Assembly: GCA_009760855.2 (NCBI GenBank)
Contig: WPIO01000155.1
Coordinates: 62,001-126,000 of the forward strand
Origin: Cristatella mucedo
Taxonomy: Eukaryota > Bryozoa > Phylactolaemata > Cristatellidae
Length of the DNA: 64,000 nt
Reading direction: 5' to 3'
The notes below the pieces were generated by a model. That model worked only from the letters and a program-made list of their open reading frames with translations. It was not told the origin of the DNA and did not search any database. Shown here piece after piece: positions 20,484-27,635 of this stretch (positions are counted from its first letter, which is position 1; every line of letters begins with the position of its first letter). A program made the translations under genes and the position numbers.

Positions 20484-20741
20484 ATAACAGAATCAGGAGA
20501 AAGAGGAAGCACGGATTCGAAGCTTCATTCGCTCGCCAAGCCTGTCTCTTTAAAACCAGCGGCAGCGTTGGCTAATGAAGACATCGACTGCATTGCTGAA
20601 GTCGCTCTCAAGGAGGCATCCTCTCTGGAGAAGGAGCTCGCACGAGACGTACACATGGCGAGGCTGCACGCATTGAATGAATGGAGACACTTGCTCGAGA
20701 AAAGCAAGTCGTGTCCAGTGTGCTCGAACCCGCACTGTCAG
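20484..20741 (+). CDS. RING-B exon with N-terminal half of RING finger
   Basis: A 3' splice site (AATATTTTTCTCAG) and a CAG|GTATGG donor bound an 86-residue phase-0 exon. It contains a predicted helical, acidic-basic stretch (CIAEVALKEASSLEKELARD, then ALNEWRHLLEKSK) and ends KSCPVCSNPHCQ. C-P-V-C is the typical first ligand pair of a RING finger. Joined to 27420-27635, the distance from the second to the third ligand is 11 residues, the same as in BRCA1-type RINGs. The order helix, RING, helix resembles RING-A, so the two are probably paralogues. Confidence 0.65.
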
Positions 20742-21015
20742 GTATGGCGCACATTTGACTGTGGGATAAGCTGATTTTGCGGGAGAGTAACTGTTACAGA
20801 GCTATGTGGGAAAAGGTGAGCATGTGAGCACGCGGTACAATGCGATTTATGAAGGCCTGTGTATAATAACGCGTGACTGAGAGATGTGGACAGTATGTGA
20901 GCATGTGGGAAAACACGTGCTGAAAAGAGGCGTGACTTTCAGAGGGATCCTATGCTGTCTGAGTGGAAGCTTGAGCGAAAGTGAAAGACACTCGAGTTGA
21001 AAGAGAAGCAGTGAG

Positions 21016-21535
21016 CTCTCTCTCTCTCTCTCTCTCTCTCTCTCTCTCTCTCTCTCTCTCTCTATCGCTCTCTATCGCTCTCTGTCTCTCTATCGCTCTT
21101 TGTCTCTCTATCGCTCTCTGTTTCTCTCTCTCTATCGCTCTCTATCTCTCTCTCTCTCTCTCTCTCTCTCTCTCTCTCTCTCTCTCTCCTCTCTCTCTCT
21201 CTCTCTCTCTCTCTCTCTCTCTCTCTCTCTCTCTCTCTCTCTCTCTCTCTCTCTCTCTCTCTCTCTCTCTCTCTCTCTCTATCGCTCTCTATCGCTCTCT
21301 GTCTCTCTATCGCTCTCTGTCTCTCTATCGCTCTCTGTCTCTCTATCGCTCTCTGTTTCTCTCTCTCTATCGCTCTCTATCTCTCTCTCTCTCTCTCTCT
21401 CTCTCTCTCTCTCTCTCTCTCTCTCTCTCTCTCTCTCTCTCTCTCTCTCTCTCTCTCTCTCTCTCTCTCTCTCTCTCTCTCTCTCTCTCTCTCTCTCTCT
21501 CTCTCTCTCTATCGCTCTCTCTCTCTTTCTGCACA
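21016..21535 (+). repeat. Compound (CT)n microsatellite, about 520 bp
   Basis: CT dinucleotides interrupted by TATCG and TGT blocks. The block at 21061-21150 recurs at 21281-21390, so an internal duplication is likely. Confidence 0.95.
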
Positions 21536-22089
21536 ATTTTATCTGTTAAATTAGCTTTAGTTAAAATCGGTAACCAATGTCTTTTATCATAAACAAAATA
21601 ATGCACATCAGACATTAATATCTTTTTTATCTGATAGCAGTTGCATTCATATTCTTATTCTGGACCGTTTACTTGCTGGAGTGATAACAACCTATAAATG
21701 TTCATGATAATAAATAATTATAATGTATCTCCGTCTGTAGCTTCACTGAAATATAAGGACTAAATGGGCGCTACTGAGAAGAGGTTCTCTACTCCACTCA
21801 CTCGCCTCTAGTGGCTCTCGGCTCATGCTGCCTTTAGTTCATAACGTTTTCTTAACGTAACACGTGCAAAAATAGCTTCATGGTTCTTCCTGTAGGCAGA
21901 CAGCTACTTTAGTTTGGCTGGTTAACTGTTGCACATACACAGTTATTATATTTGATCACATGTCGCTAGCTAGTTCGAACAGGGATGCTGAGCTTATCAT
22001 TCGACAGAAACGGCTCTGCTTCGGGTTTAAAGTGACCGTCGGAAAAGCCCGGATCTTAGTGCTACATATCTCTGCTAATTCTCTTACAT

Positions 22090-22794
22090 CTAGCAGCAGG
22101 ATTTGACAACATTGACCACTTCTGCATTCTTGGGGCAGTCATCAGACACCCATGCCTTCATAGAGCGCTTCTCTCTGATGACGAGGCTCGTACTTGCCAT
22201 CAGCTGCAGACAGTGACGGCAAGCTGAGTCAGGGCTCATTGGACTGCATGAGCTCTTAGCTTGACCTGATTGGATGGATTCCTGATCAAACCGGCCTTGA
22301 CCATGTACCGCTGCCTATCGGACGCGAAAAATCGGCACAGAGCCTATCAGATACCGAGAAGCCGCTCGTAGCCAAAGCAAGCTGCCGAGACTCATTTAAG
22401 TCATCGGAATCAGCTGTGGTGCTTGAAAATAAACTTAATGCTTGCCTTGCAGACATGCGATCCTGGATGTAGGGCAATTAAAATAAGCGACGATAAAACC
22501 GAACCCATACTCGGAGGACACCCAAAGCGTCCCGATGGACTAGGAGAGCTAGCTCTTTTTAATGGGGATGCTGCAGTGCGACCGTCGCCGTGTGCTCAAA
22601 CTTAAGACATCCTCTTTGTGCTTCAGATTTAAAAGCTTCATTGAGAAGACTGCAAAGATAGCGATCACGTTCGATGTCTTTCCGAGATCAGAGACTGTCT
22701 ACCCAGCTGGCTTGCTAAAATTCATACTCACTCCCTCGTTCTGTCTGGGCTCAGCTACTACAATCTCGTTCGGCAGGGTGACCACCGGAAAAGC
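22090..22794 (+). mobile_element. LINE-B reverse transcriptase, degraded, left part
   Basis: Begins near the palm motif A (FDNIDH against FDTIDH) and continues to ENKLNACLADMRSWM and the DDKTE region at 22490. Several frameshifts. It is interrupted at 22795 by a LINE-A 3' end and resumes at 22906. Confidence 0.7.
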
Positions 22795-26236: not shown

Positions 26237-26465
26237 GCTACCATTTAAATCGCTGCAATTCAAGCTCCCTCTGGTGACTCGATTGTATCGTTCCTGTGCA
26301 TATTATGGCAGAGGCTTTTGATGGTCCTGGCGAGCTTTATAATCTTGAAGCCTGAGCTGCATGCTTGGGGACAGAGTTCTCAATGATGTTGCATGCAATG
26401 CATTACTTTTAAAATCACCATACAAATAGCTACACTGTATTGTTCATCAGCTAAATTGTATTTTG

Positions 26466-26536
26466 CTCTCTCTCTCTCTCTCTCTCTCTCTCTCTCTCTC
26501 TCTCTCTCTCTCTCTCTCTCTCTCTCTCTCTCTCTC
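26466..26536 (+). repeat. (CT)n microsatellite
   Basis: Pure CT tract 230 bases after the minisatellite, pyrimidines on the plus strand. Confidence 0.97.
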
Positions 26537-27419
26537 GGTCGCTATAAAGAGTTGTGCGGCAGTTCTACATGCAGCTACCCAGCCTTTTCCATAAAGCAGC
26601 GCGTTTGGCTAGTTTGTTGCTGCAACTTTACTATTGAATCTTTATATAGCCTAGAATCAAGACTAGGGATCCCCCTTTGCACATGAGCAAAATCGGACGC
26701 CTTGAACTTTAACCATTCCTACAGAAGTGACAGTGACAGCACAGTGACTAAGCTGCATGAAATGTACCAAGAAAGAATAGAAAGAATAATGGCAGACAAG
26801 AAACAGCGGGCGAACAATACGAAAACTCTAACTTGGCTATCTTCTGATGGCGCTGCAAAAAGTATCCTTTATAAAGGCAATATGCATTCTCATTATATCT
26901 GATTTGCTGTGCATGCCTTGCGTATAAATTGGCGTAAATACGTCTCATATATGCTTATGTCCAACAGAAATATCACGGAGCCAAGCTTTTGTAAAAAAAA
27001 AACATGGGAACCATAAAGTTGCAGGTTATTTTACGCGTGACCGCGTCTTCACTTGGTCTGTATGTCTATGATTCAACTTACACAGAGCTCTAGCACATTT
27101 TCCGACTTGACCCTGTGACAAGGACTCGCTTGAAAGCAAATAGTTTTAGCCATAAGCCTACTATTATTCCCAGTTAAACTGCATCTATCGTCAATTGTTA
27201 AACTTTCGCAAAATAAATTGCCATCCAGCCTTTTCGTGGTTAATATCAGAAATCCTCACGCTATGATGTAATTGTGATACCTATCAGGGTAGTCTAGCAT
27301 TCGAAGGCTTATGCTTGCAGTCGGCTTTGCAGATATTGAGCTTGTGCGGCATCTTTGTCAATGGTTGATTGTTGCCGGAGCACATCGAGATTGATGCGTT
27401 TCGCTTCGTTTTGTTGCAG

Positions 27420-27635
27420 AGTGTCCTGCTCGGTTGCGGTCACTGGATGTGCTCGCGCTGCTTTGTAACCAGGTATCCAGCGACCACGGACTTGCGTGAG
27501 AAGCATTGCTCGTTCTGCGGTGAACCACCACTGCACTTCTGCACTCTTCACGAGTTTGATAGCTTGGTAGACAGACATGTAATCAAGATTTTGGAGGAGA
27601 AGCAATTGGCGTTTCAGAGCATGCTAGATCCATAG
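27420..27635 (+). CDS. RING-B terminal exon with C-terminal half of RING finger
   Basis: A strong 3' splice site (CGCTTCGTTTTGTTGCAG) opens a phase-0 frame of 71 residues ending in TAG. It starts SVLLGCGHWMCSRC, a textbook C-x-H-x2-C-x2-C segment, and later has HCSFCG for the last two ligands. Joined to the 20484-20741 exon it completes a C3HC4 RING finger. After the finger comes CTLHEFDSLVDRHVIKILEE, a helix comparable to VLQIDRVIEDMQRHV in RING-A. The probable role is an E3 ubiquitin ligase or a partner in one, known for the RING class but not shown here. The RING is at the C-terminus, and the substrate-binding part is unknown. Confidence 0.7.
   Translation, partial: SVLLGCGHWMCSRCFVTRYPATTDLREKHCSFCGEPPLHFCTLHEFDSLVDRHVIKILEEKQLAFQSMLDP

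Follow-up and report, generated by a model that had tools for sequence, protein, structure and literature searches.

A predicted C-terminal C3HC4 RING finger divided by a repeat-filled phase-0 intron in the bryozoan Cristatella mucedo

Introduction

C3HC4 RING fingers share a consensus of eight zinc ligands with canonical spacing, arranged in cross-brace order. Contact with the E2 enzyme is made by a hydrophobic residue in the gap that separates ligands 1 and 2, a proline is common between ligands 7 and 8 (C-P-x-C), and active RING E3 ligases usually carry a basic linchpin residue after ligand 8. Among proteins with a RING close to the C-terminus, an orthologue of RNF8 would be expected to possess an FHA domain upstream. 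The division of a RING between exons is already known, for example from BARD1, in which the RING maps to exons 2 and 3 (PMC7396976).

Here we examined a window of 64,000 nucleotides from Cristatella mucedo (contig WPIO01000155.1, positions 62,001 to 126,000), and describe two exons, B1 and B2, that together encode a RING-type ligand pattern. The resemblance to BARD1 lies in a RING that is spread over more than one exon (PMC7396976); it is a likeness of gene structure and does not imply orthology.

Results

Exon B1 (20484..20741, plus strand, 258 nt) encodes a helix-like segment followed by RING ligands 1 and 2, terminates in the residues CPVCSNPHCQ and is in phase 0 at both ends. It is immediately preceded by ...ATTTTTCTCAG and immediately followed by GTATGG; the donor CAG/GTATGG scored 4.79 and ranked 28 of 3350 GT sites using a general donor matrix, which underlies all donor scores reported here. 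Exon B2 (27420..27635, plus strand, 216 nt including TAG) is immediately preceded by ...TTTTGTTGCAG and encodes ligands 3 to 8, a further segment and the TAG stop. When the two exons were joined in frame, a product of 157 amino acids was obtained, with GT and AG at the splice sites, both junctions in phase 0 and the intron positioned six residues past ligand 2. All eight C3HC4 ligands were present, with the spacing C-x2-C-x11-C-x-H-x2-C-x2-C-x15-C-x2-C. The original prediction had joined these two segments, about 6.7 kb apart, into an in-frame C3HC4 RING with phase-0 splice sites and an 11-residue gap between ligands 2 and 3, and each of these elements was recovered exactly at the coordinates claimed. 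A possible polyadenylation signal, ATTAAA, is located at 27699..27704 on the plus strand.

The intron between B1 and B2 (20742..27419, plus strand, 6,678 bp) contains CT tracts, LINE pieces and a 20-bp minisatellite (24461-26236; 88.8 copies, 97% match), while B1 and B2 themselves lie outside the self-similar repeats longer than 60 bp and the tandem arrays of the window. A CT-rich polypyrimidine tract of approximately 2.2 kb is found at 30149-32356. LINE 3' ends recur along the window, with pieces of a single family occurring in both orientations (2369-2854, 14943-15879, 16956-18325, 37718-38147, 44035-44384, 49767-50571, 54024-54740, 56428-57103 and 63410-64000) at approximately 73-97% identity among the listed pairs longer than 250 bp. 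When ten further open reading frames were scanned for domains, a reverse transcriptase match (17950-18342, minus strand) was the only one to reach its cut-off, and a match to HNF-1B (E 0.011) was taken as chance. Matches in the plus-strand frames scanned to STAT1 TAZ2-binding (E 0.13), Hok/Gef (E 0.083) and LDL receptor class A (E 0.021, in a LINE stretch with stops) were likewise taken as chance. A 30-bp minisatellite with the 10-residue frame TMDTLKAEVG (16794-16958 and 18327-18406) flanks the minus-strand LINE 3' part at approximately 16956-18325, which looks like an insertion of the LINE into the array. Past the LINE, the copies of this repeat contain a stop, and the frame at 16794-16958 was accordingly rejected as a candidate upstream exon.

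Comparison of the 157-residue join with Pfam revealed a match to zf-C3HC4_3 (PF13920) across the B1/B2 junction (21.9 bits, E 1.5e-4), which is below the gathering score of 27 for this model, as was the score of a shorter join (22.8 bits). The zf-RING_5, zf-C3HC4 and XB3/XBAT31 RING models also matched, each under its own cut-off. The RING matches anticipated from a profile search were therefore obtained, with 21.9 bits the best for the full join, but no RING model reached its curated gathering score. A RING split in phase 0 is well supported by spacing, splice sites and profile matches, though the last are of sub-threshold strength. Four RING models matched both the join and B2 alone and could be compared directly. 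Inclusion of B1 raised the score from 17.7 to 21.9 bits for PF13920, from 9.7 to 16.1 bits for PF00097 and from 12.1 to 16.3 bits for PF24921; only PF14634 (zf-RING_5) scored lower on the join (21.1 to 17.8 bits).

We also compared the join with the sequences of solved structures. The best match was RNF8 (E 0.0015, query residues 31-101), in an alignment that spans the segment preceding the RING and ligands 1 to 6. B1+B2 resembles RNF8 in having a Glu/Lys/Leu-rich segment and, after it, a RING close to the C-terminus; however, the match is weak, it ends at ligand 6, and no FHA domain was found in the plus-strand frames scanned, the B1 frame of 6000-20999 giving no Pfam match up to E 1. Further matches included TRIM34 (E 0.0036), TRIM21 (E 0.0049) and BRE1A (E 0.028), among 54 with E at or below 10. 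The TRIM and BRE1 RINGs aligned across the junction, from ligand 1 through the region of ligands 7 and 8, but their scores are weak, and a B-box model appeared only at E 8.8 and overlay the RING itself. When B2 alone was compared, none of the eight matches up to E 1 was a RING chain. Weak matches of the join to a Rad50 zinc hook, of MetW in several searches and of a TOMM leader-binding protein were taken as chance.

A second RING-like pair, overlooked in the original prediction, lies upstream on the same strand. The open frame 7695..8045 holds exon A1, which ends in phase 0 with CSLCGCLLHK before GTGAAG (donor score 3.49). A2 (14026..14382) encodes CSSC and CPVAGC as parts of a RING-like 3' half and closes with a TGA stop. 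The intron between them (8045/14026) has the same cut point as that of B, in phase 0 and six residues past the second cysteine. Cysteines occupy the places of ligands 1, 2, 5, 6, 7 and 8, with ligands 7 and 8 four residues apart, while ligands 3 and 4 are missing (there is no C-x-H), so that zinc site 2 (ligands 3, 4, 7 and 8) is incomplete. The absence of these ligands may be genuine, or may stem from an overlooked exon or an erroneous base; a cysteine codon is present in another frame just before CSSC, and the frame may have been disturbed there. The A1+A2 join gave no match to Pfam RING models up to E 10. Among solved structures it matched PCGF1 (E 8.1e-4) in an alignment that covers the RING as well as the helix after it, a likeness to PCGF1/BMI1-type RINGs from which it differs in its missing ligands, the wide gap between ligands 7 and 8 and the lack of a Pfam RING match. 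For A2 alone, PCGF1 (E 0.0056) ranked behind an unrelated designed helical protein (E 0.0016). Weak matches to PknG rubredoxin and DpnI were taken as chance.

The TGA ending A2 at 14380 is followed by AATAAA (14385..14390, plus strand) two bases past the stop, and the only donor-like site in A2 scoring above zero (14299, 0.47) is weak and in phase 1; A2 thus has the character of a terminal exon, and the A pair that of a gene in its own right. Most likely A1/A2 belongs to an adjacent gene broadly similar in kind to B, and possibly an old tandem relative. Local alignment revealed no significant similarity between A and B in four comparisons with 2000 shuffles each, of which 538, 1163, 520 and 1129 reached the observed score, and the argument for tandem duplication therefore comes from layout.

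The frequency of such half-RING patterns was assessed within the window. A six-frame search for the strict 3' half (C.H..C..C then C..C) gave a single occurrence, and none of 60 dinucleotide shuffles contained it. A looser 3'-half scan identified A2 (14026), B2 (27420) and a low-complexity cysteine run (39515) on the plus strand, and a single place near LINE-like repeats (22906) on the minus strand. Open C..C frames ending in a phase-0 donor with a score of at least 3 were found twice on the plus strand (8045 and 20741, both cut six residues past ligand 2) and never on the minus strand, compared with a mean of 0.23 and a maximum of 1 in 60 dinucleotide shuffles, in a scan that used this general donor matrix and was designed once both sites were already known. 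At lower donor thresholds the strands become alike (three on the plus strand and one on the minus strand at a score of 1, three on each at 0). Searches for relatives gave 7 pattern matches for B and 8 for A2 in viral contigs, and 74 for B2 in prokaryote genomes; none was confirmed, and absence from these viral and prokaryotic, not eukaryotic, collections says little. If the halves were instead remnants of a gene in decay, or short open frames with no relation to each other and no transcript, this would fit with the modest RING scores, with an A pair that has neither two of its ligands nor a Pfam RING match, and with the failure to find relatives in the collections scanned. Such a chance or relic origin, which we regard as unlikely, is countered by the agreement in phase, the canonical ligand spacing, the splice signals and the shuffle controls. 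B1/B2 is probably a real, intron-split RING finger of an ordinary eukaryotic gene.

To compare possible pairings, each 5' half was joined to each 3' half. B1+B2 gave the highest score for zf-C3HC4_3 (22.8 bits), followed by A1+B2 (19.6 bits, E 8.2e-4), and neither A1+A2 nor B1+A2 matched this model. A1+B2 is also a complete C3HC4 RING, with TRIM5 as its best PDB match (E 0.0048), and is the only join for which a BARD1-type RING model appeared (E 0.63); domain score alone is thus insufficient to assign the exons to a common transcript. A1 could accordingly be the true 5' partner of 27420, with B1 skipped or alternative and one gene producing RINGs from alternative halves, and its phase-0 end six residues past ligand 2 is like that of B1. 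This arrangement would nonetheless need a 19.4 kb intron that skips both A2 and B1, and B1 has the better score, the shorter distance to B2 and the stronger donor (4.79 versus 3.49), making A1 an improbable partner. The pairing of B1 with B2 is likely on these same three grounds, so that the single RING originally proposed for B1/B2 stands as the probable pairing, though not as the only full RING that the window can encode. For A2 the comparisons disagree: Pfam favours B1 over A1 as its partner, with B1+A2 matching zf-C3HC4_2 (18.7 bits, E 0.0015) and also RNF8 (E 0.0027), and the PDB comparison favours A1 over B1.

The four segments could also be exons for one protein that carries a pair of RING-like domains, since they lie in order on one strand and the A1 and B1 donors and the A2, B1 and B2 acceptors are all in phase 0 in the frames used. 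Such continuity is hard to reconcile with the stop and adjacent AATAAA of A2, or with its sole above-zero donor, whose phase is incompatible with the phase-0 acceptor of B1, and we consider a single protein very improbable. That the four half-RING exons are interchangeable, with alternative splicing making chimeric RINGs such as A1+B2 from one locus, seems highly unlikely.

The plus strand was also scanned for further domains. Nothing reached a gathering score in positions 1-6002 (three frames), 6000-21000 (two frames) and 6002-18001 (the third frame), and no upstream exon of B was found in the plus-strand frames scanned up to approximately 21000; the start of the gene may lie beyond the window. 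No matches were obtained with Rfam or in a tRNA scan.

Discussion

Taken together, these data are best explained, with good though not full confidence, by a eukaryotic gene of E3-ligase type that ends in a C-terminal C3HC4 RING, with B1 and B2 as its last coding exons and a repeat-filled intron between them. The spliced exons, the LINEs and the repeat content likewise point to a eukaryotic genome. B1 and B2 would be the final two coding exons of a nuclear gene, and the encoded protein would end in the RING, preceded by a segment predicted to form helices. Splicing of the 6.7 kb intron would produce the complete RING, which would be expected to coordinate two zinc ions in a cross-brace arrangement. 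The ligand spacing (x2, x11, x1, x2, x2, x15, x2) agrees with the C3HC4 consensus, and CPVC in B1 supplies the hydrophobic residue expected for contact with an E2. The RING would probably recruit an E2 enzyme, from which ubiquitin would be passed on, and the flanking helices could perhaps give a dimer, as in RNF8 or BRE1. Ligand 8 is, however, followed by Gly (CSFCGEP) in place of a basic residue, and ligands 7 and 8 have no C-P-x-C proline; for these reasons the predicted ligase activity may be weak or absent.

The analysis brings to light a likely gene of the sort that could be lost during repeat masking and gene finding, next to a pair of exons that shares its cut point. If transcripts were to mix the halves of the two pairs, the locus would represent modular RING assembly by splicing; as things stand, the finding is a gain for annotation rather than a new mechanism.
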